From Bacteroidia bacterium (GTDB lineage Bacteria > Bacteroidota > Bacteroidia > CAILMK01 > JBBDIG01), in contig JBBDIG010000020.1 in assembly GCA_040880525.1 (NCBI GenBank), positions 1 to 35,697 of the forward strand: 35,697 nt of DNA. Reading direction: 5' to 3'. A model generated the notes under the pieces. It ran no database searches and was not told the DNA's origin. It saw only the letters and a list, made by a program, of their open reading frames with translations. A program made the translations under genes and the position numbers. Of the stretch, positions 1 to 35,547 are shown piece after piece; the first letter of the stretch is position 1, and the number at the start of each line of letters is the position of its first letter.

Positions 1-120
1 AGTGTAAAAAAATTATTCACTTCTCAAAAGACAGAGTTTAAATTACACCCTCGTTATTTCAGAAAAAAACTTAGCAACCAGAAATGCCTGTCCTCGGAGC
101 AACCTAATTTAATAAAAGCT

Positions 121-3021: not shown

Positions 3022-3120
3022 CCGGGCAAAGTTCGTCTTAAAATTCTTTAAGGATTGTCTTCCTGATTCTGTCGTACAGACTTTAAAAAGAGCCGTGCGA
3101 TTCCACGATCGTCAAAAGTA

Positions 3121-3154
3121 AACAGCCTTGCCGGGAATTCCCGGCAAGGCTGTT
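3121..3154 (-). terminator. Palindromic terminator downstream of the YceI gene
   Basis: A perfect inverted repeat with 15-bp arms (AACAGCCTTGCCGGG and its complement) around an AATT centre, 32 nt after the yceI-like stop codon. On the minus strand it is preceded by A-rich sequence and followed by TTTACTTTT, as expected of a Rho-independent terminator. On the plus strand it is also followed by T-rich sequence. The minus-strand tract directly after it (3120-3113) reads TACTTTTG, an exact match to the Bacteroidota -7 box, so it could also help start the antiporter transcript; no good -33 box accompanies it. Confidence 0.8.
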
Positions 3155-3186
3155 TTGTAAAAAAGTATAGAAACTAAAAGCCGCTT

Positions 3187-3816: not shown

Positions 3817-4032
3817 TGATCTAAATTTTAAATTCCAGAGCGTGTTTTCGATAACCATGCCAATTATATGTATATACATTTAATGTTGATACCTGATTAT
3901 TTAGTACAGCACTCTTTAAAATGGTTTTCGGTTTACCAGGGTATCAATTTTCCGGCTACAGATGGTTTTTTAAAGCTCCGGGAGCATCCGTTCCCCCAGA
4001 ATGCCGCTGTATGCCAGGCTGCCAATCCCGCT

Positions 4033-4040
4033 TACCTTTG
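4033..4040 (+). promoter_or_regulatory. -7 promoter box for the RNA methyltransferase gene
   Basis: TACCTTTG matches the Bacteroidota -7 consensus TAnnTTTG exactly and ends only 4 nt before the ATG at 4045, so transcription would begin at or next to the start codon (leaderless or nearly so). No clear TTTG is seen 19-21 nt upstream, which lowers confidence. It supports 4045 rather than 3868 as the start. Confidence 0.5.
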
Positions 4041-4044
4041 CGGT

Positions 4045-5454: not shown

Positions 5455-5668
5455 TTGCTGTGTTTTTACATTAATAATTCAGCATTAAGAAAATGATAAG
5501 AAGTTGATTTTTAGAAAATTTAAATTACAAAAAATAAAAGCCTGATAAAAAGAACACAGCCGAATCAGGAATGAATATTCTTTTTAATTAAAACTATATT
5601 ACCAAACAAAACAAATTTTTAAACCAAATACCATTTTAATTAAATAAACTTTTTGTTATTCTAAAAAA
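5455..5668. other. Strongly AT-rich intergenic region
   Basis: This stretch between the RNA methyltransferase and the glycosyltransferase genes is much more AT-rich than its surroundings, with many A/T runs and no ORF. It has no exact TAnnTTTG box and only a weak six-base inverted repeat (CCTGAT...ATCAGG, about 5543-5570). It presumably carries the glycosyltransferase promoter. Confidence 0.4.
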
Positions 5669-6520
5669 ATGAAATTCTCAATCATCACTGCATGCTATAA
5701 TGCTGAAACCTACCTTGAGGATACCATCAGAAGTATTCTTCAGCAGCATGGTAATTTTGAAATTGAATACACCATCCTGGACAATTGCAGCACTGACCGG
5801 ACAGGTGAGATAATTCAGCGCTATTTGAAATTACAAGAAGCCGGGCAGCTTAAATATGACTGCCGCAGCCTGGAAATTCACTACCTCTGCGAGCCGGACA
5901 GCGGTCTCTATGATGCATTGGTCAAAGGATTTGAAATGGCGACAGGAGAGATCATTGCTTATATCAATGCGAATGATTTTTACTTTCCCGGTGCATTTGC
6001 TACGGTACATGAAATTTTTGAGGAAAACCGGGAAGTGCAATGGCTGACAGGGATTCCGGTTTCCACTAACGAAACGGGGCAGCCGGTATATTGGGTGCTT
6101 CCGTTGCGCTATAATATTTCCATGATCAGGCAGGGATACTACGGCAGGCGCCTCTACTATGTGCAGCAGGAATCTACGTTTTGGAAGAAAGAATTGCTAA
6201 AGGCTGCAAATTTTGAAACCTTGCGGAAAATGAAACTTGCGGGAGATTATTATCTCTGGTTTTCGTTTGCAGCCGTAGCCAAACTTTACCAGGTGCGTTC
6301 CTTTCTGGCTGCCAGCCGCCAGCACGCTGATCGCCTGTCAGCCGACCGTGCCGGTTACGAAGCAGAGATCAGGGCTTTTTCAAATAAGAAGGGCGTAAAA
6401 AATCACCTGCGGGCTTTTGCACAATATGGCCTGACCTATTTATTACCCGATAAAATAAAAACTATATTAAACCCACGAATATTTTTTTACAGTAATAATA
6501 AGTGGAAAAAGGGAAAGTAG
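5669..6520 (+). CDS. Family 2 glycosyltransferase
   Basis: Cytoplasmic GT-A fold (GT2) glycosyltransferase of 283 aa, of the kind that adds sugars from nucleotide-sugar donors to envelope or exopolysaccharide acceptors. The N-terminus carries the family signature ITACYNAETYLEDTIRSIL and the nucleotide-binding strand YTILDNCSTDRTGEII. Then CEPDSGLYDALVKGFEMATGE matches the conserved region preceding the DXD loop. The loop itself reads INANDFYFPG, where relatives usually have NSDD; one acidic residue is therefore replaced. No membrane segment is evident. The gene is not in a polysaccharide cluster, follows a very AT-rich spacer and is followed by a heptamer repeat, so it may be an acquired or relocated gene. 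Substrate unknown. Confidence 0.88.
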   Translation: MKFSIITACYNAETYLEDTIRSILQQHGNFEIEYTILDNCSTDRTGEIIQRYLKLQEAGQLKYDCRSLEIHYLCEPDSGLYDALVKGFEMATGEIIAYINANDFYFPGAFATVHEIFEENREVQWLTGIPVSTNETGQPVYWVLPLRYNISMIRQGYYGRRLYYVQQESTFWKKELLKAANFETLRKMKLAGDYYLWFSFAAVAKLYQVRSFLAASRQHADRLSADRAGYEAEIRAFSNKKGVKNHLRAFAQYGLTYLLPDKIKTILNPRIFFYSNNKWKKGK

Positions 6521-6523
6521 GAA

Positions 6524-6551
6524 ATTGGCTATTAGCTATTGGCACTTGGCT
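6524..6551. repeat. Tandem heptamer repeat (4 units)
   Basis: Directly after the glycosyltransferase stop codon are four consecutive, slightly degenerate 7-base units: ATTGGCT, ATTAGCT, ATTGGCA, CTTGGCT. Period 7 is maintained throughout, and the units differ by one or a few bases. It lies in the short spacer before the TfoX-N gene. Confidence 0.6.
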
Positions 6552-6626
6552 TAGGATCGAACAGATTTGCGAACTGAAGAGTTAAGCAAGAATAAAATTA
6601 AGCATCCAGCAAACTATACGGAAAAC

Positions 6627-6926
6627 ATGACGAAAGCAGAAGAACTTTACGATGAAATAGCAGCGGAATTAGGTGCCACGAAAGACCAAATGTTTGGCAC
6701 ACCCTGCCTGAAAGCGCCTAATGGCAAAGCCCTGGCGATGTTGTACGACAATGAAATGGTCTTTAAGCTGAGGGGCGGAGAAGAATCAGAAGCTACCGGC
6801 CTTCAGGGTGCGCATCTTTTTGATCCGATGGGCAACCGGCCCATGGGAGGTTGGGTGCAGATACCTTTCAGGCATGCCGGAAAATGGAAAGAATTTGCAA
6901 AAAAAGCGTATGAAAATGTTAGCTGA
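6627..6926 (+). CDS. TfoX N-terminal domain-like protein
   Basis: Small cytosolic protein of 99 aa resembling the TfoX/Sxy N-terminal domain. The pattern DQMFGTPCLK followed by GKALAMLYDNEMVFKL matches the family's start (MFGG...., a hydrophobic strand, then xxLxLKL). It lacks the C-terminal TfoX domain, so a role in competence regulation is not implied; stand-alone versions are common and uncharacterised. The ATG at 6627 (MTKAEELYDEIAAELG) gives the usual helical N-terminus; the frame can be extended to a TTG at 6567, but those residues do not look conserved. It follows the glycosyltransferase by about 100 nt and precedes a VOC protein gene. Confidence 0.75.
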   Translation: MTKAEELYDEIAAELGATKDQMFGTPCLKAPNGKALAMLYDNEMVFKLRGGEESEATGLQGAHLFDPMGNRPMGGWVQIPFRHAGKWKEFAKKAYENVS

Positions 6927-6999
6927 CTTTCATTTAGATTACATATTTTAATAATCTTTAAATCTTTATAAATCAAATTTCTTAATCCGGGTATTCGCA

Positions 7000-7007
7000 T
7001 AAATTTG
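7000..7007 (+). promoter_or_regulatory. -7 promoter box for the VOC protein gene
   Basis: TAAATTTG matches the Bacteroidota -7 consensus exactly, 36 nt upstream of the ATG at 7044. The expected -33 position holds AATTT rather than TTTG, a weak match. It argues that the TTG-initiated extension at 7005 is not used. Confidence 0.5.
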
Positions 7008-7043
7008 TATACAACAATTTTCAAATTTAATATAACAAAAAAA

Positions 7044-7421
7044 ATGAATTTACCAAAAGATTATCAACAGGTAATGCCCTCTTTAATTGTAAACGGGGCA
7101 GCGGCTTTTCAGCAATTTATGACCAAAGTATTCGGAGCCAGGGAAAAGATGATCGTACCGGATGGGGATTCACAAATTATGCATGGAGAAGTGTTGATTG
7201 GGGACAGCATGATAATGTTTGCTGACAGTACGAATGAATTTACACCCAAACCCGCAGCGCTTATGATTTACGTAAAGGATGCCGATGCTACCTACAAAAA
7301 AGCATTGGACGAAGGTGCCGAAACTATTTTTGCGCCTGCCGACAAAGAATATGGACGTAGCGCTGGCGCCAAAGATAAATGGGGCAATTCCTGGTATATC
7401 ACTTCCATCCCTAAACCGTAA
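7044..7421 (+). CDS. VOC/glyoxalase superfamily (PhnB-like) protein
   Basis: Cytosolic 125-residue protein of the vicinal oxygen chelate superfamily, closest to the PhnB-like/glyoxalase subgroup. It shows the two-half beta-alpha-beta pattern: QQVMPSLIVNGAAAFQQFM, the AFGA-like VFGAREKM, MHGEVLIGDSMIMFAD, then LMIYVKDADATYKKALDEGAE and the C-terminal KDKWGNSWYI, which corresponds to DPFGNxW. The His in MHGE and the acidic residues could bind a metal, but enzymatic function varies widely in this family and no substrate is assigned. The ATG at 7044 is chosen over a TTG at 7005 because it removes a non-conserved leader and fits the promoter box. It ends 37 nt from the convergent recN stop. Confidence 0.85.
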   Translation: MNLPKDYQQVMPSLIVNGAAAFQQFMTKVFGAREKMIVPDGDSQIMHGEVLIGDSMIMFADSTNEFTPKPAALMIYVKDADATYKKALDEGAETIFAPADKEYGRSAGAKDKWGNSWYITSIPKP

Positions 7422-7458
7422 TTCTTTTATTAAATATTCGAGCTTAGCGGAGAAGTCA

Positions 7459-9123
7459 TCAGATTCTTCCCTTGAGTTCGCGGGCGCTGGCTATGGCGGT
7501 TTCGCTGGGCGTTTTGCCGGCCAGCATTTGTGCTATTTCCAGCAGGCTCTGCTCCTCTTCCAACCGGGTGATTATGGTATGGGTGGCATCCAACCCTCTT
7601 TTCTTGGATACCATAAAATGATGATCGGCCAAAGCCGCAATCTGGGGCAGATGGGTAATGCAGATCACCTGATGCTTTCCTGAGAGTTTGCGGATCATTT
7701 GCCCGACTTTCTTGGCTGTTTCGCCTGAGACACCGGTATCAATTTCATCAAATATCATGGTGGGCAAAAAGCGGGTCCCGGCAAGCAGGTATTTGAGCGC
7801 CAGCATTACGCGGGATAATTCGCCACCGGATGCCACCGTACCAATTTTTCCTGGATTGCTCCCCCTGTTGGCCGAAAAAAGTATTTCCACTGCATCACAG
7901 CCTGTTAATGTGAGTTGACTCTCAGGCAATTGTTGAAGGTCTATCTTTATTACTGCATCAGGAATGCCTGCCTGCTTCAATAAAGTTTGTAACTCCTTTT
8001 CAAGGCCTGGAATGTTTTTCTGGCGATTTACAGAAAGTTTGGCTGCCAGTTCTGAAATCTCTTTTTTCTTGCACTGAAGATCCTTTTCTGCTGTCCTTAT
8101 TTCGTCATTCAATGAAGAAGCGGCTGTTAATTTCTGGCGCAGAGAATCTGCAAAGTCAAGTAACTCAGGCAAAGCAGAGAACTGGTGCTTCTTCAGCAGC
8201 ATTTGCATAAGCTGCAAGCGGCTGTTCACTTCGTTTATCCGCTCTTCATTCACTTCCACTGCGTGCAGCCTGGTGGATAATTCCGCGTGTATATCTTTTA
8301 GTTCTACCAGCAGGGCCTGTACGCGTTCATGCAATTGCTGCAGCGGGGCCTCGAAACGACTGATCCCGGAGAGGGCCTTTTTCACTTCCATCAAAAACGC
8401 AAAAGCACTCGTTTCGCCATCATAGCTCAGAAACATAGCCTGCTCCAGGCTCTGCTGAATATTCTCAGCATTCGTCAGTAATTCCTGCTCCTGGTCCAGT
8501 TGCTCCTTTTCCTGTGGCTTAAAGGCAGCCGTTTCTATTTCATTAAGCTGAAATTTAAGATACTCCTGATCGCGCGAAAGTTCAGCTTCCTGCTTTTTTA
8601 ATTGCTCTGTCCGGGTAAGCGCCTGCTGGTATTCCCGGAATTTACTACGATACACTTCCAGAGCTTTTTCGTGGCCGGTAAAAGCATCCAGTATCTCCAT
8701 CTGGAATGAAGACTGGCTGAGCCGCAAGGTCTGGTGCTGAGAATGAATATCCACGAGCTTTTCTCCCGCTTCGCGCAATGCGGGTAGATTTACCGGAGTA
8801 TCGTTGATAAAGGCGCGTGATTTCCCGGAGGCACTGATTTCCCTTCTCATAATGAGTTGAGGTTCCACATCCAGGTCATGTTTTTTCAGGAAGGAATGCA
8901 GATAATTGCCGGAAAACGCGAAGGTTCCTTCAACAATGCACTTTCGACCGGGATCCAGAAGAGCCGAGGTATCAGCGCGATTGCCGAGGATGAGGCCCAG
9001 GGCCCCCAGGAGAATAGATTTACCGGCACCCGTTTCACCGGTTATGATGTTCAGCTTATCCCTGAAGGAGATATCAAGTTGATCTATCAGGGCGTAATTG
9101 GAAATAGTGAGGTGCGTGAGCAT
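7459..9123 (-). CDS. recN: DNA repair protein RecN
   Basis: SMC-like ATPase of 554 aa that acts early in recombinational repair of double-strand breaks. The N-terminal half-ATPase starts ISNYALIDQLDISF and has the Walker A motif GETGAGKS at residues 29-36. A long coiled-coil region rich in Glu, Gln, Lys and Leu fills about 155-365. The C-terminal half has the ABC signature VASGGELSR and the Walker B/D-loop MIFDEIDTGVSG, followed by VICITHLPQIAALADHH. Length and order match RecN. It is the last gene of the bamD-rpoZ-coaBC-porD-recN run, 14 nt after the porD-like stop, so it is probably cotranscribed with these genes rather than solely damage-induced. Confidence 0.97.
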   Translation of the reverse strand: MLTHLTISNYALIDQLDISFRDKLNIITGETGAGKSILLGALGLILGNRADTSALLDPGRKCIVEGTFAFSGNYLHSFLKKHDLDVEPQLIMRREISASGKSRAFINDTPVNLPALREAGEKLVDIHSQHQTLRLSQSSFQMEILDAFTGHEKALEVYRSKFREYQQALTRTEQLKKQEAELSRDQEYLKFQLNEIETAAFKPQEKEQLDQEQELLTNAENIQQSLEQAMFLSYDGETSAFAFLMEVKKALSGISRFEAPLQQLHERVQALLVELKDIHAELSTRLHAVEVNEERINEVNSRLQLMQMLLKKHQFSALPELLDFADSLRQKLTAASSLNDEIRTAEKDLQCKKKEISELAAKLSVNRQKNIPGLEKELQTLLKQAGIPDAVIKIDLQQLPESQLTLTGCDAVEILFSANRGSNPGKIGTVASGGELSRVMLALKYLLAGTRFLPTMIFDEIDTGVSGETAKKVGQMIRKLSGKHQVICITHLPQIAALADHHFMVSKKRGLDATHTIITRLEEEQSLLEIAQMLAGKTPSETAIASARELKGRI

Positions 9124-9137
9124 GAGATGCCACGAAA

Positions 9138-10034
9138 TTACCTGATTTTCTCCTCATACTTTGTGATGTGCCTGACATCCACTTTTCGCAGAATATTCAA
9201 AACCTTGAATTTTTCTGAAGGCGTTGATGCGCTGAAAATATTATTGATCTCGTCTACTTTGGCGTCAAAAAATACTTGCAGCGAGTATGAGTTTGGCCGG
9301 GCTTCCTGCACTTTCTGAAGATTTTCGAGGCTGCCTAAAATGGTTGCTCTGCCTTTGTCAGTATCTGTGGACATTATATCAAGCCCAAGCCGGTGGTACG
9401 TATACATGGTTTTTCGCAACGGCTCAAATCTCGGATCCAGCAATTCCGTAACCAGCCAGTAGCGGTTGCGATCGCTTTCTGAAGGAGACCAGCCTGCTCC
9501 ACCTCCGAGCGAACCGGCTGCAGAGGTTATATTCTTAGCTTTTTGATAATACTGAGTGCCGCCCATTTCTTTATAAGAATCATAATCAAATCCTAATATT
9601 GTGTATGCATAATAAGCCAGGATAGATGTGAGATTGGAAACACTGCTGCCTTCCATAAAGTCCATTGCCTGGAATTCAACATATTCAAAACCAATATCTT
9701 TATCCAACACATTCAGCAGCGGAGACCTGTATCCGGTGCTATAGACGGGGCGGCCAATCTGCACCTGCATAGTTCCACTGAAAACATCACCCTGCATGGA
9801 GGAGAGATTTATTACCATGCTGCACTCAATGCGCTCCCCCGGTAGAAATTCATCATCCGTCCATTGCCGGTTGTTCATAAATTCCTTGATACTGGTTTCC
9901 ATTGAATTAAAAATGCGCCTGTCACTTGTTTGAATCTGATCAGTGATTACCCGCACATCACAGTTCAACTCCTGCCCCCACGCATAACCTGTCATTGCAT
10001 AAATGAATATTAAAACCAACCCTGAGCACTTCAT
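9138..10034 (-). CDS. porD: DUF4835 family protein, PorD-like (type IX secretion)
   Basis: Exported protein of 298 aa with a Sec signal peptide cleaved near residue 20 (LVLIFIYAMTGYAWG, then QELNC). The mature chain opens with NCDVRVITDQIQTSDRRIFNSM and contains RPVYSTGYRSPLLNVLDKDI, ILAYYAYTILGFDYDSY and GGTQYYQKA, which I recognise as the DUF4835 family, annotated in Bacteroidota as type IX secretion protein PorD. The name is a family annotation; its biochemical role is poorly defined. It overlaps the coaBC stop by 4 nt (ATGA) and precedes recN, the usual order in the phylum. A T9SS cargo gene at 20147-22066 shows that the system is present. Confidence 0.85.
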   Translation of the reverse strand: MKCSGLVLIFIYAMTGYAWGQELNCDVRVITDQIQTSDRRIFNSMETSIKEFMNNRQWTDDEFLPGERIECSMVINLSSMQGDVFSGTMQVQIGRPVYSTGYRSPLLNVLDKDIGFEYVEFQAMDFMEGSSVSNLTSILAYYAYTILGFDYDSYKEMGGTQYYQKAKNITSAAGSLGGGAGWSPSESDRNRYWLVTELLDPRFEPLRKTMYTYHRLGLDIMSTDTDKGRATILGSLENLQKVQEARPNSYSLQVFFDAKVDEINNIFSASTPSEKFKVLNILRKVDVRHITKYEEKIR

Positions 10035-11248
10035 TTTGCCTTTCCTCTTTTTTCTTCTAAAATCTTAATAATTACCTGTACTATGTCCTGTGCAGCTTTC
10101 CTTTTCGATTGTAAATCAAATTTAAAGTGTTCTCCCTTTGCTGTGAAAATAGCAATCTTATTTGTGTCATATCCAAAGCCCGTACCTTCATCCTTCAGAG
10201 AGTTCAACACAATTAAATCAAGGTTCTTATTTTTCAGCTTTTTCAGTGCGAACTCTTCTTCATTGTTCGTCTCAAGGCTAAACCCGGCAAGCACCTGGTT
10301 TTGCTGTTTTAAACGGCCCAATTCCAAAAGTATGTCGCGGGTCTTAACCAACTTTAGCACCAATGAATTATTTTCATTCTTATCCTTTTTAATTTTCCGC
10401 TTTGCGGGAGCTTCGGGAGTGAAGTCTGCAACAGCCGCAGCCATGACCGCACCATCACAATTTGGGAAAAGTCGGTTGCAAACTTCATCCATCTCTGCGG
10501 CACTTATAACGCGATGGAGCATGATCCCTGGATTATTGGTCGAAAGCTGGACCGGCCCAGTTATCAATTCCACTGCTGCTCCTTTTTGTGCCAATGCCTC
10601 GGCCAGCGCAAAACCCATTTTGCCGGAAGAGTGGTTGCCGATATAGCGTACAGGATCAATGGCCTCGTAAGTGGGGCCGGCCGTAACAAGAAATCTTATT
10701 CCGGCCAATTGCTCATTTTGAGTTTGAGGAAGCAGGGAAATTATGGTTTCCGGTTCTGCCATTCTGCCGATCCCTGAAATGCCACTCGCCAGTTCTCCTT
10801 CTTCGGGCGGGATCATGAAATGCTGGCTCCGTTCCTTCAGCAGGCCAAGATTGGATTGTGTAGCAGGATGAAGATACATGTCCCGGTCCATAGCCGGAGC
10901 AAAATAAACCGGACAGGTAGTTGACAGATAAACGGCCAGCAAGAGGTTATCGCACTGTCCTTTCGCCATTTTCGCCAGCGTGTTGGCCGTGGCTGGTGCT
11001 ATTAAAAGGAGATCCGCCCAGGCAGCAAGTTCCACATGGTTTACCCACGTACCATCCTTTTCATAAAAACGGGTATAAACCGGATTTTTGGAAACTGTGG
11101 AAAGCGTAAGCGGAGTAATAAAAGCAGCACCATCATCTGTAAGGATCACTTTTACCTCATGCCCCGCCTTAACAAGCAGGCGGCAGAGAGAAGCAGACTT
11201 GTATGCCGCAATGCTTCCGGATACACCGATGAGGATCTTCAGGGGCAC
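10031..11248 (-). CDS. coaBC: Bifunctional phosphopantothenoylcysteine decarboxylase/synthetase CoaBC
   Basis: Cytosolic bifunctional coenzyme A biosynthesis enzyme, 405 aa. The N-terminal flavoprotein (CoaC) domain has GVSGSIAAYKSASL, the catalytic His at about residue 71 (VNHVELAAWAD), the FAPAMDRDMY substrate clamp and GIGRMAEPE. It decarboxylates 4'-phosphopantothenoyl-cysteine. The C-terminal CoaB domain, from about residue 185, has GPTYEAIDPVRYIGNHSSGKMG and the late K-NKNLDLIVLNSL segment, and joins cysteine to phosphopantothenate. Usual length. Start ATG at 11248, 5 nt after the rpoZ stop; its stop overlaps the next start, implying translational coupling within the operon. Confidence 0.97.
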   Translation of the reverse strand: MPLKILIGVSGSIAAYKSASLCRLLVKAGHEVKVILTDDGAAFITPLTLSTVSKNPVYTRFYEKDGTWVNHVELAAWADLLLIAPATANTLAKMAKGQCDNLLLAVYLSTTCPVYFAPAMDRDMYLHPATQSNLGLLKERSQHFMIPPEEGELASGISGIGRMAEPETIISLLPQTQNEQLAGIRFLVTAGPTYEAIDPVRYIGNHSSGKMGFALAEALAQKGAAVELITGPVQLSTNNPGIMLHRVISAAEMDEVCNRLFPNCDGAVMAAAVADFTPEAPAKRKIKKDKNENNSLVLKLVKTRDILLELGRLKQQNQVLAGFSLETNNEEEFALKKLKNKNLDLIVLNSLKDEGTGFGYDTNKIAIFTAKGEHFKFDLQSKRKAAQDIVQVIIKILEEKRGKAK

Positions 11249-11253
11249 GCGCC

Positions 11254-11598
11254 TTATGTGAGTTCTATCTCTTCAGGAGGTTTCTGCTCCCGGTTTGGGT
11301 TGCGATAATATATCTCCCCGGCCAGGAATTCTTCTGTTGCTACTACCGTAGTTTTCGGTAGCCTTTCGTAGTGCGTGGAAATCTCAATTTGCTCGCGGTT
11401 CTCGAATACTTCCTCCAGACTGTCGGTACTAGGGGCGAACTCCTCGAGCTTGGACTGCAGTTCGTCCTTTTGCTGAAGCGAAAGCTGGTTGGCGCGCTTG
11501 CTTATGATCACCAGCGTCTCATAAATATTTCCTGTAGGCTCCTGAAGGATCTTCAGGTCTCTTGCTATTATTTCGCTTGGAATTTCTTTATTAATCAT
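11254..11598 (-). CDS. rpoZ: RNA polymerase subunit omega (Bacteroidota Rpb6-like type)
   Basis: Small 114-aa protein matching the Bacteroidota omega/Rpb6 subunit, which helps assemble RNA polymerase by holding the beta-prime C-terminus. The segment IYETLVIISKRANQLS corresponds to the conserved omega/Rpb6 helix (YExVxxxxKRAxQL). The C-terminal tail is acidic and phylum-specific. It begins only 2 nt after the bamD stop and is followed 5 nt later by coaBC; omega next to dfp/coaBC is a widely conserved arrangement (rpoZ lies near dfp in several phyla), which supports the call for a divergent small protein. Confidence 0.88.
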   Translation of the reverse strand: MINKEIPSEIIARDLKILQEPTGNIYETLVIISKRANQLSLQQKDELQSKLEEFAPSTDSLEEVFENREQIEISTHYERLPKTTVVATEEFLAGEIYYRNPNREQKPPEEIELT

Positions 11599-11600
11599 TT

Positions 11601-12425
11601 TTAGATTTTTTTAGAATTAATGTCATCAAGATTCTGGAGTGCCTTTTCATATATGTCCGTGGCTTCTTTACGAAATTTTGAATCCGGATAACGTTCGATA
11701 AACTCCTGATACACTTCAATTGTATCCATGTAGCGCTCGGCTTGTTTGGTCTCCACGCTGTTTTCTGCGAGTTTGTAATATGATTCAAGAATTAAGATTT
11801 CCACCTCATCCCGGTTTTCTATAGCAGGGTATTCTTCCAGGGCTGCTTTCAGTGAAAATGCAGCGGCCTTGTAATCCATTATCTGATAATAGGCCATAGC
11901 GGCATTAAACGTCTTGCGCTGAAGTTTATCTCTAAAAACATCCATGTAACGGTTGGCTTCATCTACTCTGTCACTGTCAGGAAAACGGTTAACAAAAAAC
12001 TGAAATGCCTCTATTGCACCGCGTGTATTGCTTTGGTCAAGATCTGCCTGGGGGGAGTTGAGATACTGAGTGTAAGCATACATATACATGCTTTCTTCAG
12101 CGTGTTCCCCACGGGGATAAGAATCGGCCAGCTTCTTAAAATAGTAGGAAGCCAGGAGAAAATTCTTGAGATGGTAATTTGAGTAAGCCAGATAGAAGGT
12201 AACTTTCTCGCCTTTTTCCGTACCTACATAAAAGCGATATATTTCATCAAGCAATGCCAGTGCCCGGCTGTGCTGATTGTTTTCGTAATAGGTTTCAGCG
12301 TATTCCAGCTTCTGTTCCATGTCATCCCCGTTCAGTACCTTTTGATACTTACTGCAACTGGGAAAAATAGCAACGGAGATAAAAAGGATGAGGAAAAATC
12401 CGGCTGATCGTTGGATGGTATTCAT
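11601..12425 (-). CDS. bamD: Outer membrane assembly lipoprotein BamD
   Basis: Lipoprotein of 274 aa, part of the BAM complex that inserts beta-barrel proteins into the outer membrane. The signal peptide ends in the lipobox FPSC with Cys at residue 24. The mature protein starts SKYQKVLNGDD and is built of about five TPR-like helical repeats (for example AETYYENNQHSRALALLDEIY, FYLAYSNYHLKNFLLASYYFKKLADSYP and a final VYQEFIERYPDSKFRKEA). This is the YfiO/BamD pattern, at family length. It heads the operon with rpoZ, coaBC, porD and recN. An exact -7 promoter box lies 10 nt before its ATG. Confidence 0.94.
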   Translation of the reverse strand: MNTIQRSAGFFLILFISVAIFPSCSKYQKVLNGDDMEQKLEYAETYYENNQHSRALALLDEIYRFYVGTEKGEKVTFYLAYSNYHLKNFLLASYYFKKLADSYPRGEHAEESMYMYAYTQYLNSPQADLDQSNTRGAIEAFQFFVNRFPDSDRVDEANRYMDVFRDKLQRKTFNAAMAYYQIMDYKAAAFSLKAALEEYPAIENRDEVEILILESYYKLAENSVETKQAERYMDTIEVYQEFIERYPDSKFRKEATDIYEKALQNLDDINSKKI

Positions 12426-12435
12426 AATAAGCGTG

Positions 12436-12443
12436 CAAAATTA
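12436..12443 (-). promoter_or_regulatory. -7 promoter box for the bamD operon
   Basis: Read on the minus strand this is TAATTTTG, an exact TAnnTTTG match, ending 10 nt before the bamD ATG; transcription would start only a few bases before the start codon. No clear TTTG lies 19-21 nt further upstream. The divergent SPT-like promoter lies about 55 bases away. Confidence 0.55.
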
Positions 12444-12497
12444 CTGATATATACGCTAATATTGGTAAAAAAATTACAAACGACCGTCAGTTTAATG

Positions 12498-12530
12498 TTT
12501 TGCAAATACTTGCCATTTGCTTTAGCTTTG
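12498..12530 (+). promoter_or_regulatory. Complete Bacteroidota promoter for the SPT-like gene
   Basis: A TTTTG -33 element at 12498-12502 is followed after 20 nt by TAGCTTTG at 12523-12530, an exact -7 box. Spacing and both elements fit the consensus TTTG-N19-21-TAnnTTTG. The predicted start of transcription (about 12535) precedes the ATG at 12560 and excludes the longer reading frame from 12500. Confidence 0.8.
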
Positions 12531-12559
12531 TCCCCTTATTACGAATCAACCTGAATTTC

Positions 12560-13810
12560 ATGGATATTTTTGAAAAGATATTGCTCAACAGAGGCCCTTT
12601 AGGCCAACATGCTAAGGACATTCATGGATACCTGACTTTTCCTAAACTTGAAGGAGAAATAGGTAATCGCATGAAATTCCGTGGCAAAGAGAAGCTCGTA
12701 TGGAGTCTTAACAATTATCTGGGACTTGCCAATCACCCTGAAATAAGGAAGGTAGACCAGGAAGCTGCCGAAGAGTGGGGCCTTGCCTATCCGATGGGCG
12801 CAAGAATGATGTCTGGAAATACCAATCATCATGAACAACTGGAACATGAACTTTCCGACTTCGTAAAAAAGGATGATACCTTTCTGCTGAACTACGGCTA
12901 TCAGGGGGTTTTGTCCGCAATTGATGCACTGGTTGATAGGCATGACGTAATCATATATGACGCTGAATCTCATGCCTGTATAATTGATGGCGTGCGGTTA
13001 CATTATGGTAAGCGCTACACCTACCTTCATAATGATATTAACAGCCTTGAAACGCAATTGAAGCGGGCTCAGCGCATTGTCAATAATTCTAAAGGCGGTA
13101 TTCTGGTCATAACCGAAGGCGTGTTCGGAATGTCTGGAGATCAGGGCAATTTGAAGGAAATAGTTGCGCTGAAACAGAAATATGATTTCCGCCTGCTGGT
13201 AGATGATGCTCACGGTTTTGGAACCATGGGTGAGAGCGGAGCCGGTACAGGCGAACTGCAGGGTGTTCAGGAAGATATTGATATTTACTTTTCCACTTTT
13301 GCCAAGAGCATGGCCAGTATAGGAGCATTTATTTCGAGCAATGAACAGGTAGTTGAATATCTGCGCTACAATATGCGCTCACAGATTTTTGCTAAGTCAT
13401 TGCCAATGCCTTTGGTAATCGGAGATTTAAAGCGCCTTGAACTGCTGCGCAAACAGCCGGAACTCAGAGAACGTCTCTGGACCATTGTAAATGCTTTGCA
13501 AAAAGGATTGCGGGACAGAGGCTTCAAACTCGGCAATACCAATAGTCCTGTTACTCCGGTGTTCCTAAGCGGAAATCCCACAGAGGCTACCAATTTGATT
13601 GTGGATCTCAGGGAGAACTATAATATCTTCTGCTCTATCGTAGTATATCCCGTAGTGCCCAAAGGCGTGATGATGATCCGCCTGATCCCCACTGCCGCCC
13701 ATACACTGGAAGATGTTGATGAAACGCTTGAAGCATTCTCTCACGTTGCCATGAAACTGCAAAACAGCCATTATGCAACTGAGAAGCTTTACAGCATGCA
13801 TTCAAGCTAA
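12560..13810 (+). CDS. spt: Serine palmitoyltransferase-like alpha-oxoamine synthase
   Basis: PLP-dependent class II aminotransferase-fold enzyme, 416 aa. The closest recognisable group is the Bacteroidota serine palmitoyltransferase, which condenses serine with a long-chain acyl-CoA as the first step of sphingolipid synthesis. The start MDIFEKILLNRGPLGQHAKD and the segments KLEGEIGNRMKFRGKE, AYPMGARMMSGNT and RSQIFAKSLPMP are typical of it. PLP residues visible are DDAH (215-218), with the His stacking on the ring, and Lys249 in STFAKSMASIG, the Schiff-base lysine. The ATG at 12560 is chosen because a full promoter lies just upstream. Glycine C-acetyltransferase (Kbl) is the main alternative, but the N-terminus and substrate-pocket sequence favour SPT. 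Confidence 0.82.
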   Translation: MDIFEKILLNRGPLGQHAKDIHGYLTFPKLEGEIGNRMKFRGKEKLVWSLNNYLGLANHPEIRKVDQEAAEEWGLAYPMGARMMSGNTNHHEQLEHELSDFVKKDDTFLLNYGYQGVLSAIDALVDRHDVIIYDAESHACIIDGVRLHYGKRYTYLHNDINSLETQLKRAQRIVNNSKGGILVITEGVFGMSGDQGNLKEIVALKQKYDFRLLVDDAHGFGTMGESGAGTGELQGVQEDIDIYFSTFAKSMASIGAFISSNEQVVEYLRYNMRSQIFAKSLPMPLVIGDLKRLELLRKQPELRERLWTIVNALQKGLRDRGFKLGNTNSPVTPVFLSGNPTEATNLIVDLRENYNIFCSIVVYPVVPKGVMMIRLIPTAAHTLEDVDETLEAFSHVAMKLQNSHYATEKLYSMHSS

Positions 13811-29428: not shown

Positions 29429-30664
29429 ATGGAACAAACTTACTTTTATATTATACTGGGAATCCTGATATTCAATTTCGTGCTGGGCGAGTTGCTGGAT
29501 TATCTGAACAGCAAGCGATGGAGCAAAACTTTGCCGGAGGAACTTAAGGTATATTATGATGAGGAAAAATACCGAAAAGCGCAGGAATACAACCGGGAGA
29601 AAAGACGGCTGGGAATTATCAGCAGCACCCTCAGTTTTATCGCCATTCTGGTTGTCATTTTACTGGGCGGCTTTGGCTGGCTTCATACAGCTCTGATCCC
29701 ATATTTCGATAATCTTATACTCTTTACGCTCGTCTACTTTGGTGTGCTGGGAATCGCCTCTGATCTGCTGGGGCTGCCATTTTCTCTCTACAACACTTTT
29801 GTAATTGAGGAAAAATATGGTTTCAACCGCACCACTGTCAAAATCTTTATAGTTGATAAGCTTAAAGGATATCTGCTCGCCATACTGATCGGAGGTTTGC
29901 TGATGGCCGCGATACTCTGGTTTATTCTTGAGACCGGCCAGGATTTCTGGCTGTACGCCTGGTTGATTGCCGCTGCCTTTATCGTTTTTGCCAACTTCTT
30001 CTATACCAGCCTCATTATTCCGCTCTTCAACAAATTGAGTCCGCTGGAGGAAGGTGAACTTCGGGAAAAAATAGTGGCCTATGCAGAAAGTGTGAATTTT
30101 CCGCTGAAGAATATCCTGGTAATGGACAGCTCCAAACGCTCCAGCAAAGGCAACGCGTTTTTCTCAGGGTTTGGGAGAAGCAAAAAAATTGTTCTGTTTG
30201 ATACCCTTATTGAGCAAAATTCTCCTGAATCGCTGGTGGCTATTTTGGCTCATGAAGTAGGTCATTATAAAAAGAAACATATTGTGCTGAACCTGGTGCT
30301 GTCGCTTCTTCAGACCGGGATTATGCTGTTTATCTTCAGTCGCTTTGTTTTTTCGGAGGATCTGTCGGCAGCATTGGGAGCTCCTGAATGGAGTTTGCCT
30401 GTGAATATTATAGCCTTCGGAATACTTTATGAACCTATTTCACTCATTTTAGGGTTATTAATGAATTACCTTTCAAGAAAACATGAATACCAGGCTGATG
30501 CTTTTGCGGCTAAAACGGCAGACGGCACTGCGCTAAAGGAAGGATTGATAAAATTACATACAGATCATTTTGCCAATCTTCGTCCCCATCCCGCATACGT
30601 TTTCTTCCATTATTCGCACCCGCCACTTCTCAGCCGGTTGAAATCAATTGAAAATCCTGCCTGA
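29429..30664 (+). CDS. M48 family (Ste24-like) integral membrane metalloprotease
   Basis: Inner-membrane zinc protease of 411 aa with seven or so membrane segments, of the CAAX prenyl protease 1/Ste24 type (Peptidase_M48_N plus Peptidase_M48). The zinc motif HEVGH is at residues 275-279 within LVAILAHEVGHYKKKHI; the third ligand is E353 in RKHEYQADAFA. The conserved N-terminal LLGLPFSLYNTFVIEEKYGFN segment and SSKRSSKGNAFFSGFG match Ste24/YhfN homologues. In bacteria, which lack prenylated CAAX proteins, it probably takes part in membrane-protein quality control. It lies between the TPR gene and the lipoprotein/beta-barrel pair, all on the plus strand. Confidence 0.94.
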   Translation: MEQTYFYIILGILIFNFVLGELLDYLNSKRWSKTLPEELKVYYDEEKYRKAQEYNREKRRLGIISSTLSFIAILVVILLGGFGWLHTALIPYFDNLILFTLVYFGVLGIASDLLGLPFSLYNTFVIEEKYGFNRTTVKIFIVDKLKGYLLAILIGGLLMAAILWFILETGQDFWLYAWLIAAAFIVFANFFYTSLIIPLFNKLSPLEEGELREKIVAYAESVNFPLKNILVMDSSKRSSKGNAFFSGFGRSKKIVLFDTLIEQNSPESLVAILAHEVGHYKKKHIVLNLVLSLLQTGIMLFIFSRFVFSEDLSAALGAPEWSLPVNIIAFGILYEPISLILGLLMNYLSRKHEYQADAFAAKTADGTALKEGLIKLHTDHFANLRPHPAYVFFHYSHPPLLSRLKSIENPA

Positions 30665-30677
30665 CAATTTAAGTTTG
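30647..30677 (+). promoter_or_regulatory. Complete Bacteroidota promoter for the lipoprotein/beta-barrel pair
   Basis: A TTG at 30648-30650, inside the 3' end of the protease gene, is followed after 19 nt by TAAGTTTG (30670-30677), an exact -7 box, 17 nt before the ATG at 30695. Both elements and their spacing fit the phylum consensus, so the pair can be expressed apart from the upstream genes. Confidence 0.7.
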
Positions 30678-30694
30678 TAATTTAAAATTTAAGA

Positions 30695-32764
30695 ATGAGC
30701 AAGTTTCTGAATATAGCCTTAATCAGCCTTCTGGTGGTTTTGGCGATCGCATGCAAACGGGAAGACCCTGCATGGAATAGTGATCTCTCGGCACCACTGC
30801 TGAAGGGGCAACTCACGATATATGACCTTATTTCTGATTCTCTGATTGTGGCCAATTCAGATTCATCTGTGACTTTTGTGTACAACAAAAAGATTTATTC
30901 AGCGGGGCTTGATACTTTGCTGCAAATCCCTGATACCACCCTTCCAAAAACAGTCACCCTTAGCTCAATCAGCCTGGGAACACGTGTAATATCTCAGGAC
31001 ATAACACTGGGACAAGTGGCCCGTGGAGCCGGACCGCCTTTTGGATCGGTGATTTTGAGCAGCCATGGACAAAACTTCGTACTGCCTCCATTTGACAATC
31101 TTTCAGCGGGCGCGGTAGAAGTTGATGCCAATTCATTATTTCAAACAGCAACTTTCAAATCCGGGAACCTTGAACTGAAAATTAAAAATGGCTTTCCGGT
31201 AGATATTGAGGAGGTACACCTGACGCTTAGTAATAAGACGTCAGGCACCATCGTAATTCAGGATACGATACCGCTGATCGTGAGCGGGCAGGAGTTCGTG
31301 GAGAATTATCCCCTGGCCGGCAAAACCGTAGAAGGAACCCTGATTGCAGCAATTACCAACATAAACAGCCCCGGCAGTAATGGTAATCCGGTACCTATTG
31401 ATACAAATGATGCACTGGAAATAACCCTGACAGCTTCAGCGCTGCAAGTGCAATCTGCCACCGCAATATTTCCAGCTCAAAACCTGGTGGATACCAAAGA
31501 AGATATTGCCTACGACATTCCGGATGCGGAACTCACAAGTATGATACTTGCCGAAGGAACGATCAAGATGACTGTGGCTTCCACGATCCAGGATTCCGTT
31601 TATATCAACTATGAAATTCCTGAAGCTAAAAAAGGCGGCCGGTCCCTGGTCATTCGAAGAGTAATACCCCCTGCGCCTGCCGGGGATACCGTTTATCTTT
31701 CTGAAGATGTGGATGTAAGGGGCTATCGTGTGGACCTGAGGGGCCAGGACGGAACCAAATACAATACCTTCTATAATACTTTTGTGGTTAGCATTGATTC
31801 CACAGGCAAACTCGCCTCCCTTTCGCTTGATGACAGTATTTACGTTTTTTATGGATTAGTCAATGTGGTGCCTGAATATGTGGAAGGTTATCTTGGCCAA
31901 AAGCAGTTTGAGGTAGGACCGGAACAAATTAAGTTTGATTTTTTTGATCAGGTAGCTTCCGGACAACTGGAGTTTGAAGATGTCCATATGGAACTTCAGT
32001 TCGACAATACGGTGGGTGCGGACGGTGAGATACAGGTGAATACGGTATCATTTCAAAATCCGCCCAGTACCAGTTTGCTACAAAGCCCTCTGCTTGAGTC
32101 GCCTATCAATATTCCAAGAGCGACCGATGGACCTCTTGAAGCCGGAAATAAGACGCTCGAATTGTCGAAATCTAATAGCAATCTGCCAGAGGCACTAAAG
32201 ATCATCCCAAAGGAAGTGACTTACAGCCTGGATGTGGAACTTAACCCGAACGGGAATGTCAGCGGCCACAAAGATTTTCTTTACAGAACCAGTGAAATTG
32301 CGGTGATCATGGGATTGCAGATCCCGCTGGACTACTCAGCCACTAGGCTTACACTTCAGGATACACTTGAACTGAATCTGACAGAAGAAGAAGCGATTGG
32401 AAATATTCAGGAAGCTACGCTGAATTTAGAAGCGGAAAACATGTTCCCGATGGATATTGGCCTCACTTTCTATTTGCTGGAATCCTTTACGGGGCAAGTA
32501 ATTGATTCCATTTTTACCGCACCGGGAAATGTGATAAATGCAGCAACCAATTTCCAGCCCGATGGCAAAATCAGGAATCCTGTGCAGACCATGGTGCAGG
32601 CCAAACTGGATCAAGCGCAGATAATGAATCTTCAGCGTTCAGATAAGGTGCTGGTAAAGGCAATACTCCATACTCCCTTTTCTAATAAGGTAAAGGTTTA
32701 CGACCATTATACCCTGGACATGATCCTTACCACCGATTTCACCTATCGAATTGTGAATAAATAA
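30695..32764 (+). CDS. Large uncharacterised lipoprotein with LEA/WHy-like beta segments
   Basis: 689 aa, not assigned to a named family by me. The N-terminus MSKFLNIALISLLVVLAIAC is a lipoprotein signal with Cys20; the next residues KRED are charged and resemble the acidic/lysine-led surface export signals seen in some Bacteroidota lipoproteins (inference). The rest is predicted beta-rich, without Cys pairs or obvious catalytic residues. Two segments have the same pattern: LELKIKNGFPVDIEEVHLTL (159-178) and LNLEAENMFPMDIGLTFYLL (576-595), each a strand, N-x-FP-x-DI, then a strand, as in LEA-2/WHy-type sandwich domains. It is separated by 3 nt from an outer-membrane barrel gene, so a two-component surface complex is likely. 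Confidence 0.8.
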   Translation: MSKFLNIALISLLVVLAIACKREDPAWNSDLSAPLLKGQLTIYDLISDSLIVANSDSSVTFVYNKKIYSAGLDTLLQIPDTTLPKTVTLSSISLGTRVISQDITLGQVARGAGPPFGSVILSSHGQNFVLPPFDNLSAGAVEVDANSLFQTATFKSGNLELKIKNGFPVDIEEVHLTLSNKTSGTIVIQDTIPLIVSGQEFVENYPLAGKTVEGTLIAAITNINSPGSNGNPVPIDTNDALEITLTASALQVQSATAIFPAQNLVDTKEDIAYDIPDAELTSMILAEGTIKMTVASTIQDSVYINYEIPEAKKGGRSLVIRRVIPPAPAGDTVYLSEDVDVRGYRVDLRGQDGTKYNTFYNTFVVSIDSTGKLASLSLDDSIYVFYGLVNVVPEYVEGYLGQKQFEVGPEQIKFDFFDQVASGQLEFEDVHMELQFDNTVGADGEIQVNTVSFQNPPSTSLLQSPLLESPINIPRATDGPLEAGNKTLELSKSNSNLPEALKIIPKEVTYSLDVELNPNGNVSGHKDFLYRTSEIAVIMGLQIPLDYSATRLTLQDTLELNLTEEEAIGNIQEATLNLEAENMFPMDIGLTFYLLESFTGQVIDSIFTAPGNVINAATNFQPDGKIRNPVQTMVQAKLDQAQIMNLQRSDKVLVKAILHTPFSNKVKVYDHYTLDMILTTDFTYRIVNK

Positions 32765-32767
32765 TTA

Positions 32768-34030
32768 ATGACGAGACATTTCTACCTCCTCTCTCTGTAC
32801 GTTTTATTTCCCTTTCTTCTTGCATCCCAAACTCTTCCTTATGCGTCAGCTTATGACAATTGGCGCGCAGGTGCTGGGACCCAAAGCGTTTCTACGGAAT
32901 TAAATTTTCTTCTGGGAAGCAATACGGTGCAAAACAGCTTTATTTCTAACTACTATTTTGGCGGCTTCATTGAAGAAGATAAAATAGAAACGGCTGCCGG
33001 TAAACTGCTGATCAACAATACTGCTGGCCTGGATCTGAATTTTAGTACCGGCTATTTTAATAAAAAGGATACGGCTGCCGACAAAGGCTTTCATTATGGT
33101 ATTAGCGTCAATTACCTGCAACACTACTCCGTTGCCTTCCCTGATGATTTTTTCCGGCTTATATTTCAGGGAAACTCCCGGTTCAAAGGCGAGTCAGCCA
33201 ATTTATCTGAAACAGAATATGATGATTATGCTTATTCCTCGGTAAAATTTCATGGGGTTAAGCAGTTTTCTGGTGCAAATTCGAACTGGCTTGCCGGGGG
33301 TGCATTGGCATTTGTATCGGGCCATCTGTATAAGGATCTGAATATTTCGCAAGGGAACTTGTATACGAGCAGCAATGCGGATTCGCTTCAGTTATCACTT
33401 CAGATGAATTTTGAACAAACCGGCCAGCCAGGAAATCTTGATCTCAGAGGAGCCGGGGTCGCTGCAGATTTGTTCGTTTCTTGGGAAAAGGGAAATAGCA
33501 TAGTCTCATTCTATGGATTGGATTTAGGCTTCATCCGGTGGAATGATCAGTCGGAACTACTCAGTATTGATACATCAATAAGTTTTACGGGAGTAGATGT
33601 GCGCTCATTAATTTCCGGTGAAGCCAGCGCTGATCTTGAAACCTCGCTGGATAGCCTTGAGGCAAGATTGGGTGGCGTAGCGAAAGGAGAAGCCGTTTCT
33701 AAAATGCTGCCTTTCCGGCTGAAACTTAATTTTAAAAGGAAAATTGAGATCTGGAAAAGTGAGGTTGATATTGGTGCGTTCTACCAAAGAACAGATGGCT
33801 ATTTTCCGCTGATGTATGTGAATTTTGAGAAGCATTTGATGAATTGGTTGAAAATTCAAACAGGCTATAGCTATGGTGCTTATGGAATGGGCGGAGTAGC
33901 TTTAGGACTGAGCACTAATCTGAATGAGCGGTTTTTCTTCAGTGCCTCCACCTGGCATCTGGATGGCTTGCTGCTACCGCAAAATTTCCGAGGCCAAAGC
34001 CTCACTATCCGTAGCAGCTATCGCTTTTAA
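32768..34030 (+). CDS. Outer membrane beta-barrel protein (DUF5723-like)
   Basis: 420 aa with a Sec signal peptide (FYLLSLYVLFPFLLASQ, cleaved near residue 20) and a beta-rich body. The pattern resembles the DUF5723 and PorP/SprF-like outer-membrane barrels of Bacteroidota: aromatic, alternating strands (FHYGISVNYLQHYSVAF, LKIQTGYSYGAYGMGGVALGL, RFFFSASTWHLDGL) and a C-terminal strand ending in Tyr-Arg-Phe (SYRF), the usual BAM recognition end. A soluble insert at about 265-315 (SFTGVDVRSLISG, then LETSLDSLEARLGG) could be a periplasmic plug or extracellular loop. It begins 3 nt after the lipoprotein stop and certainly shares its transcript. Its stop codon interleaves with that of the convergent GH3 gene. 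Confidence 0.8.
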   Translation: MTRHFYLLSLYVLFPFLLASQTLPYASAYDNWRAGAGTQSVSTELNFLLGSNTVQNSFISNYYFGGFIEEDKIETAAGKLLINNTAGLDLNFSTGYFNKKDTAADKGFHYGISVNYLQHYSVAFPDDFFRLIFQGNSRFKGESANLSETEYDDYAYSSVKFHGVKQFSGANSNWLAGGALAFVSGHLYKDLNISQGNLYTSSNADSLQLSLQMNFEQTGQPGNLDLRGAGVAADLFVSWEKGNSIVSFYGLDLGFIRWNDQSELLSIDTSISFTGVDVRSLISGEASADLETSLDSLEARLGGVAKGEAVSKMLPFRLKLNFKRKIEIWKSEVDIGAFYQRTDGYFPLMYVNFEKHLMNWLKIQTGYSYGAYGMGGVALGLSTNLNERFFFSASTWHLDGLLLPQNFRGQSLTIRSSYRF

Positions 34031-35547
34031 GCCGGAGATTTCAGAAATTCATTGAGTTGCTCAATGATCTTTCGGTCATTCGCGAGACGGGGTACTTTGT
34101 TTTGCCCTCCGAGCTTCCCTTGTTGTTTCATCCATCGGTAAAAAGTACCGGGTTCCAACTTATGCATTACCGGCCTTTGAAGAGCCAAGTCATTAATCCG
34201 CTTTGCTTCATAGTCTGAATTTGTGCTGGTCAGCTTTTCATCGAGCAAATCAATAAAACGTTCAAAATCGTCCGGTTCAGTCTCAAATTCCAGGAACCAT
34301 TCGTGAGCTCCCTTTCCCTCTACAGAAAAATAAACAGGGCCGGCTGTGAAATCTGTCACGCTGCATCTCAATTCGTGACATGTTTCCGCAAGCGCCTTTT
34401 CTGCATCGCCTACCATCAGCTCTTCACCGAACGCATTGATAAAAGACTTTGTCCGACCTGTAATTTTTATGCGAAAAGGATCGAGGGAAGTAAAGCGAAT
34501 AGTATCTCCAATGTTGTAGCGCCACAACCCTGCATTCGTGGAAATGATCAGTGCATAATTGGTTTCGGTCTTCACATCCTCCAATGAAAGAGTCTGCGGA
34601 TCATCTTTCCCAATTTCGGTTTCCGGCAAAAATTCATAATAAATACCATTGTTCAGGAGAAGTAATAGTTCATCACTATCCCTCTGATCCTGAATTCCAA
34701 AAAAACCTTCTGAGGCATTATAAGTTTCCCAATAGTTCATTTTGCTGCTGCGTATCAATTCCTGGAAAAGATGACGATATGGGGAAAAACTCACTCCGCC
34801 ATGTACATATAGCTCAAGGGAAGGCCATACTTCACTCATATCGTTCTTACCCGTTATCTCAAATATTTTTTTGATCAATACAACCGTCCAGGTCGGCACT
34901 CCCACCATTTGTGAAACATCTTCCTGAATTGCCTGCCGCGCCATTTGCTCAATTTTATTTTCCCATTCGTCCATCAGCGCAATCCGCAAGTCCGGAGTTC
35001 GGTGAAGATTTGCCCACCATGGAACATTCTGAATAAGTATAGCCGATATATCTCCATATGAAAGCTCGTTGCTCACTTCACGAAGCTTATGGCTTCCCCC
35101 CATCACCAAGGCTTTTCCGGTAAATATCTGGGATTCCGGATATGCATTATAATAGAGCGCGTAGAGGTCCTTTCCGCCTTTATAATGACATTCTTCAAGC
35201 GCCTCAGCAGAAACAGGAATAAATTTGCTCTTATCCTGTGTAGTGCCTGAAGATTTGGAAAACCATTTAATTTTAGAAGGCCAGAGCAGGTTATTCTCTC
35301 CGTTCATCAGCCTTTCAATATAGGGCTTGTGCGATTCATAATCCTGTAAAGGCACCCGTGCTTTAAATTCCCTGGAAGTTTTGACAGATTGATATTGATA
35401 CTTTTTGCCCCACTCTGTATCGGATGCAGTCGAAATCAGGTTTTTCAGGAGATCACTCTGAGTCTCAATAGGATTATTGATAGCCTGGCCAAGCTCATTC
35501 AGGCGTTTTCTGATGAACCAGGAAAAAAGAGAGTTTATGATCTCCAT
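34027..35547 (-). CDS. GH3 family (acyl-acid amido synthetase-like) protein
   Basis: Cytosolic 506-aa protein of the GH3 superfamily, known in plants for adenylating jasmonate, auxin or benzoates and joining them to amino acids. Its N-terminal domain shows FSKSSGTTQDKSKFIPV, the ATP-binding motif 1 (SSGT) of this ANL-type enzyme, and later YNASEGFFGIQ and GLWRYNIGDTIRFT, corresponding to motifs 2 and 3. The C-terminal domain includes RTKSFINAFGEELMV. Bacterial GH3 proteins are widespread in Bacteroidota, usually as stand-alone genes, and their natural substrates are unknown. The ATG at 35547 is supported by a -7 box 29 nt upstream. Confidence 0.93.
   Translation of the reverse strand: MEIINSLFSWFIRKRLNELGQAINNPIETQSDLLKNLISTASDTEWGKKYQYQSVKTSREFKARVPLQDYESHKPYIERLMNGENNLLWPSKIKWFSKSSGTTQDKSKFIPVSAEALEECHYKGGKDLYALYYNAYPESQIFTGKALVMGGSHKLREVSNELSYGDISAILIQNVPWWANLHRTPDLRIALMDEWENKIEQMARQAIQEDVSQMVGVPTWTVVLIKKIFEITGKNDMSEVWPSLELYVHGGVSFSPYRHLFQELIRSSKMNYWETYNASEGFFGIQDQRDSDELLLLLNNGIYYEFLPETEIGKDDPQTLSLEDVKTETNYALIISTNAGLWRYNIGDTIRFTSLDPFRIKITGRTKSFINAFGEELMVGDAEKALAETCHELRCSVTDFTAGPVYFSVEGKGAHEWFLEFETEPDDFERFIDLLDEKLTSTNSDYEAKRINDLALQRPVMHKLEPGTFYRWMKQQGKLGGQNKVPRLANDRKIIEQLNEFLKSPA

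Follow-up and report, generated by a model that had tools for sequence, protein, structure and literature searches.

A lipoprotein gene and a DUF5723 barrel gene conserved and duplicated as a pair in Bacteroidota: a candidate outer-membrane unit for hydrophobic cargo

In Bacteroidota, lipoproteins that partner an outer-membrane barrel are often found on the outside. The SusC barrel is large, depends on TonB, and contains a plug. In FadL, the NPA motif marks the N-terminal hatch, and we know of no lipoprotein partner of this protein. The barrel assembly machinery (BAM) of Bacteroidota contains a FadL-family barrel, BamG, that carries the surface lipoprotein BamH (PMC12578637; PMC12611786). BamG and BamH are reported to be universally conserved (PMC12611786), and BamG2-BamH2 of B. 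thetaiotaomicron is listed as an unassigned putative operon (PMC12578637). Here we describe a lipoprotein gene and an adjoining outer-membrane barrel gene of the DUF5723 family, found in contig JBBDIG010000020.1 of a Bacteroidia bacterium (assembly GCA_040880525.1; 35,697 nucleotides, all of which we call the window). The DUF5723 family and the structure of a lipoprotein homologue, 4H3W, are already in databases, both without a function.

The lipoprotein gene (positions 30,695 to 32,764, forward strand) encodes 689 residues that match no Pfam family and have a BDI_1231/4H3W-like model. The barrel gene (32,768 to 34,030, forward strand) encodes 420 residues ending in phenylalanine, and is identified both by Pfam (PF18990) and by its model. 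The two open reading frames (ORFs) share strand and frame and are separated by 3 nt; their coordinates agree with the layout given in an earlier note on this DNA, which was made from the sequence alone.

The two genes are found together across genomes. Searching genome contigs with nothing but the lipoprotein alignment, we obtained forty-seven loci, and in 43/47 a barrel gene follows on the same strand, no more than 700 nt downstream. The exceptions are L087, L094, and L098, where other genes occupy this position, and L106, where the stretch ends. Of 100 genomes (including that of the window), 74 gave a lipoprotein match and 63 a barrel match. Among the matches listed for these genomes were 104 lipoprotein places, 90 of which have a barrel downstream (85 by the listed barrel matches, and L006, L016, L017, L020, and L023 by a barrel profile); at least three of the remaining fourteen lie at contig ends. 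Homologues that regularly occur without a barrel, named beforehand as the outcome that would count against a pair, were thus not what we found. In 295 genomes drawn from the class, the lipoprotein family was present in 220 and not found in 75, a reach of about three quarters of the genomes sampled. One locus (L011, positions 3-3585) has tandem lipoprotein genes, with no barrel found within the examined stretch.

We built trees for both proteins from the 85 pairs with non-identical lipoproteins among 95 adjacent pairs, all of them pre-chosen for adjacency and for lipoprotein coverage of at least 350 residues. The lipoprotein and barrel trees show the same bipartition, with thirty-nine pairs in clade A and forty-six in clade B (support 1.0), and in neither tree has a partner been exchanged between the clades. 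Simple distance clustering placed the barrels of L018 and L022 on the opposite side, but the trees do not. The correlation between lipoprotein and barrel distances is 0.79, compared to a highest value of 0.10 in 500 shuffles, and is in part a reflection of species phylogeny. The window pair belongs to clade A. The window genome also has a second copy of the pair (L114, positions 2827-5808) with a clade B lipoprotein and no DUF3352-like gene upstream, and L067 likewise carries both types, so the A/B split is a split between paralogues. Because the same two clades appear in both trees with no swapped partner, we conclude that the pair was duplicated as a unit. No other evidence for a functional pair is as strong as this paired duplication. 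Together with the linkage, it strongly supports a dedicated lipoprotein-barrel pair, as the earlier note had proposed.

The clades differ in more than their trees. An NPA motif occurs in the first 110 residues of 38/46 clade B barrels and 1/39 clade A barrels, compared to 2.7 per cent in shuffles. Lipoprotein reading frames above 640 residues are found in 21/39 clade A and 9/46 clade B pairs; since they occur in both, length does not define the clades. Four of eight barrels scanned carry an OmpA domain, three of these four with TSP_3 repeats over the cut-off. In L067 (positions 2202-9296), one pair of each clade is present, in back-to-back arrangement and with divergent transcription.

The lipoprotein begins with a signal peptide and lipobox (30,695 to 30,754, forward strand; residues 2-19 are helical in the model), leaving a mature N-terminus of C20-K-R-E-D. 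The lipobox cysteine, C20, is conserved in 43/43 rows of the lipoprotein alignment, A3. The homologue consensus after the lipobox is C-x-K-(D/E), with K at +3 in 38/43 rows of A3, D or E at +4 in 35/43, and D at +5 in 3/43. The surface export signal (LES) has been defined as K-(D/E)2 or Q-A-(D/E)2 (PMC5080379; PMC11885536), and a bare K-D or K-E counts as very weak (PMC5080379). Going by these residues, surface exposure of the lipoprotein is plausible.

No family matched the lipoprotein in Pfam, NCBIfam, or PHROGs at E ≤ 1. Its AlphaFold2 model (predicted local distance difference test, pLDDT, 88.5; predicted template-modelling score, pTM, 0.70) aligns over 291 of 313 residues with 4H3W, the BDI_1231 protein of Parabacteroides distasonis (Z 17.9; root-mean-square deviation, rmsd, 7.3), and the next match has Z 8.5. 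A PDB search with the A3 profile (E ≤ 10) returned 4H3W as its sole match (E 7e-4). Fold and sequence profile both place the protein in a BDI_1231/4H3W-like group. The motif N-x-F-P-x-D-I, two copies of which had been noticed before, is indeed present at residues 165-171 and 582-588 and nowhere else in the protein; a shuffle would be expected to yield 0.0006. The second copy (32,438 to 32,458, forward strand) is a conserved family motif in A3, aligned with a like stretch of 4H3W, and its N582 and P585 are invariant. The first lies in a region (residues about 88-257; 30,956 to 31,465, forward strand) that the alignments show to be missing from homologues of about 540 residues; the window lipoprotein is a long form, with about 170 residues that the short homologues do not have.

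This extra region (D1) is a weak repeat of the next domain, D2 (hhalign E 1.7e-4, probability 49 per cent). D1 and D4 match at E 4e-4, the remaining pairs are weaker, and overlap between the segments makes the D3-D4 score an artefact; judged by these scores, internal repeats are partial at best. We also considered a specially conserved N-terminal docking segment and rejected it, as its mean majority fraction is 0.44 versus 0.29-0.45 elsewhere. The prominence of K667 and Y672 in A3 comes partly from the locus scan, which selected on that stretch. A resemblance to LEA/WHy sandwiches, suggested in the earlier note, finds no support in the sequences: LEA_2 (PF03168) was not detected in twenty-six homologues at E ≤ 1, and profile-profile comparison (with an LEA_2 profile built from at most 29 LEA_2 loci of relatives) gave a probability below 1 per cent for each lipoprotein segment tested. 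Neither the Pfam scans nor this comparison thus supports such kinship. The LEA_2 matches of the window genome sit on other contigs than the pair, and a fold search with the whole lipoprotein model filled its list with sandwiches other than LEA_2.

The barrel scores 71.1 bits against DUF5723 over residues 74-391 (cut-off 26.8). Among eight other barrels scanned, seven score 290-331 bits and the clade A relative at L066 scores 61 bits; by these scores the window barrel is a divergent DUF5723 member, like that of L066. Its AlphaFold2 model, made from a 43-row alignment, has a pLDDT of 81.3 and a pTM of 0.79. FadL chains head its VIA-align matches (Z 17.6, rmsd 5.2, 308/421 aligned), and FadL mutants (N33, P34, and the NPA deletion) appear among the PDB titles. 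Further matches include the type 9 secretion barrel 8gl6_F (Z 15.9) and the F. johnsoniae BAM chain 9n2d_B (Z 15.4). Taking the model at face value, the barrel has the FadL fold only in the loose sense. The earlier note had also described a plug-sized soluble insert, which is not clear in the model: the longest internal strand-free stretches are residues 52-82, which form two helices after the first strand (32,921 to 33,013, forward strand), and residues 275-303 (partly low confidence), about 30 residues each.

The shared conservation and duplication of the two genes suggest an outer-membrane machine. We give a probability of roughly 45 per cent to a reading in which the FadL-like DUF5723 barrel and the multi-domain beta-sandwich lipoprotein form one outer-membrane unit for hydrophobic or lipid cargo. 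The barrel would sit in the outer membrane with the lipoprotein anchored alongside, capping or feeding it and acting as a cargo-holding or gating partner, while the cargo would pass via a lateral route as in FadL. We infer three things: physical binding between the lipoprotein and the barrel, an outer-face location for the lipoprotein, and hydrophobic or lipid cargo that the barrel would take along a FadL-like lateral route. The clade A unit of the window would be a two-part version, without NPA and with a long lipoprotein. Two further parts could carry the clade B unit across the periplasm: a DUF3352/beta-propeller-like protein and, in those members whose barrel has one, an OmpA-type tail. 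If the pair does transport lipid or hydrophobic molecules, our picture of the Bacteroidota envelope would gain a further outer-membrane component.

Several observations weigh against this reading. L087, L094, and L098 carry the lipoprotein without a barrel in the examined flank (about 4-6 kb), and DUF5723 barrels without an adjoining lipoprotein exist (L113, L115-L117). DUF5723 alone is also commoner than the lipoprotein (96/100 genomes); given this and the barrels without a lipoprotein, the dependence is mainly of the lipoprotein on the barrel. The export signal of the lipoprotein is only LES-like. DUF5723 is the barrel's only match at E ≤ 1 in the Pfam scan, which returned nothing for the FadL family (PF03349); a PDB sequence search with the barrel yields no convincing relative, and the NPA motif is absent from its N-terminal part. 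CymA (Z 17.0) and OmpG-type (Z 16.8) barrels are within 1 Z of FadL, and the Foldseek list intermixes TodX/FadL chains with unrelated barrels, so the FadL match is only moderately specific and the fold alone is no proof of a FadL-type route. DUF3352 was not detected in the window genome. The lipid-gene neighbours of clade B described below are lineage-specific, and at the window none was seen except an OlsH-like gene.

Locus L113 (positions 4005-9226) holds the third DUF5723 gene of the window genome, which has no adjoining lipoprotein partner. Its neighbours presumably encode a glycerol-3-phosphate dehydrogenase, an efflux adaptor, and a TolC-type protein.

Clade B pairs have a neighbourhood of their own. 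A gene for a protein of about 900 residues with an N-terminal hydrophobic segment lies directly upstream in 27/32 clade B loci (seven of these twenty-seven genes seeded the profile used to find them), at spacings from a 91-nt overlap to a 240-nt gap. It is present in 0/8 clade A loci with room (L066 and L071 were counted via the identical contigs of L003 and L030) and is also absent at the clade B pair of L067. Three of the proteins were scanned, and matched DUF3352 in two cases and beta-propeller models in all three, not all over the cut-off. The upstream gene and the pair form a three-gene cluster (L076-L112). In nine loci, of which six carry the label Bacteroidales, BLAST clusters place genes for an MlaE-type permease and an ABC ATPase next to the clade B pair, and genes of the gldM and gldN types near it in nine and eight loci, respectively; for these cluster identities, one protein of each kind was confirmed by Pfam. 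L080 (positions 9795-13454) and like loci have the clade B pair beside the permease, ATPase, and gldM/gldN-type genes. A broader proposal, which we regard as doubtful, is that the pair belongs to an undescribed envelope system, present in much of the class and moving a lipid or other hydrophobic molecule across the Bacteroidota outer membrane, to which clade B adds an inner-membrane-anchored DUF3352/beta-propeller-like protein.

The main rival to a hydrophobic-cargo unit is a scaffold like BamG/BamH rather than a transporter: the barrel would serve as anchor, and the lipoprotein, as an extracellular arch, would assist in assembling certain outer-membrane proteins or surface lipoproteins. The Bacteroidota BAM is a precedent for a FadL-family barrel (BamG) with a surface lipoprotein (BamH). 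BAM-complex chains are among the barrel's fold matches (Z 15.4, 14.4, and 13.8), and the missing NPA of clade A would be in keeping with a barrel that has given up transport. However, the lipoprotein profile finds only 4H3W in the PDB at E ≤ 10. BamG and BamH are reported as universal, and the lipoprotein was not found in 75/295 genomes, which makes it unlikely that this lipoprotein is the BAM core. Nor is the pair a simple replacement, since 49/74 genomes with the lipoprotein also have a PF03349 match (hand count). We had considered replacement of BamG by the pair and rejected it, as lipoprotein and PF03349 matches do not exclude one another in the 100 genomes (both in 49, lipoprotein only in 25, PF03349 only in 20, neither in 6; hand count). 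The best PF03349 match of the window genome (E 0.001, 18.2 bits) is below the cut-off. On balance we consider such a scaffold unlikely; if the pair were one, it would be relevant to the assembly of surface complexes of lipoprotein and barrel.

It is less likely still that the lipoprotein faces the periplasm, where, with the DUF3352-like protein of clade B, it would bridge to the inner membrane or deliver cargo to the barrel from inside. The export signal is weak by published rules (family consensus C-x-K-(D/E)), and the DUF3352-like partner and OmpA-type tails, which we take to be periplasmic, would suit this arrangement. On the other side, in the window's C-K-R-E-D the acids at +4 and +5 come directly after a positive residue, and lipoproteins that partner barrels are, as noted above, often outside. 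A surface device that has nothing to do with hydrophobic cargo, be it for adhesion, secretion, or another task, is improbable (a PorV-like shuttle would be an example): 8gl6_F, presumably PorV, matches the barrel model at Z 15.9 and eight to nine loci have GldM/GldN genes in the vicinity of the clade B pair, but gldM/gldN were not seen adjoining the window pair, and Pfam and NCBIfam scans found no adhesion or secretion domain in either protein.

Upstream of the window pair is an M48/Ste24-like peptidase gene (29,429 to 30,664, forward strand; PF16491 and PF01435). The earlier note placed a promoter for the pair inside its 3' end. A promoter-like string of unproven role, TTG-N19-TAAGTTTG, can be read directly at 30,648 to 30,677 (forward strand), but only the TTG half (30,648-30,650) is inside the M48 gene, and TAAGTTTG follows at 30,670-30,677. 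The pattern TTG-N17-23-TANNTTTG has five matches in the window, one of them inside the lipoprotein gene, versus about 5.0 expected (about 0.007 for such a string per given 100 nt of one strand). The string is thus present but not enriched over chance, and we do not retain it as the pair's own promoter. In L003, L004, and L006, three relatives from a single family that keep this gene order, the stop of the M48 gene and the start of the lipoprotein gene share 4 nt, making an operon with the peptidase at least as likely as a separate promoter; in some relatives the two genes likely share one. Downstream, a convergent GH3-family gene (34,027-35,547, reverse strand) overlaps the end of the barrel gene by 4 nt. 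Of the NCBIfam models, that of the lyso-ornithine lipid synthetase OlsH fits it best, with a score (431 bits) below the cut-off of 620. The order M48-lipoprotein-barrel-GH3 is also found in L066.

The earlier note had put the pair forward as a candidate for an undescribed system, which stands in part: the literature searched gave it no function, but Pfam already lists the barrel's family as a named DUF, and the structure of a lipoprotein homologue has been solved. In open-licence literature (most subscription papers and preprints were outside this scope), no paper was found for DUF5723, DUF3352, PF18990, PF11832, or BDI_1231, nor for the three-gene cluster of clade B, and 4H3W is named solely in a paper on ice. 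Among the matches listed in the same literature, nothing on LEA_2 lipid transfer or on FadL with lipoproteins concerned the pair.

Compared to known systems, the window barrel resembles FadL/TodX (PF03349) in fold and length, and most clade B barrels share the N-terminal NPA as well; it differs in having neither a PF03349 sequence match nor NPA. SusC-SusD and other barrel-lipoprotein pairs are encoded by adjoining genes, as here, with no SusC-type match for the window barrel in the Pfam scan. BamG-BamH and BamG2-BamH2 also combine a FadL-like barrel with a multi-domain lipoprotein, and BamG2-BamH2 is likewise a two-gene unit. The pair differs from BamG-BamH in its patchy distribution; no BAM chain was related by sequence in the PDB search with profiles A3 or A4 at E ≤ 10, and none of the lipoprotein's 50 listed fold matches is a BAM-complex entry, which excludes nothing. 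The closest relative of the lipoprotein by structure, 4H3W, is about half as long, 13 per cent identical, and has no assigned function. The only match to the 4H3W protein in 395 genomes, a relative in G116 (48 per cent identity over 181 residues), also precedes a DUF5723 gene, at a distance of 30 nt, and the pair gives a partner and a genetic context both to DUF5723 and to this orphan structure.

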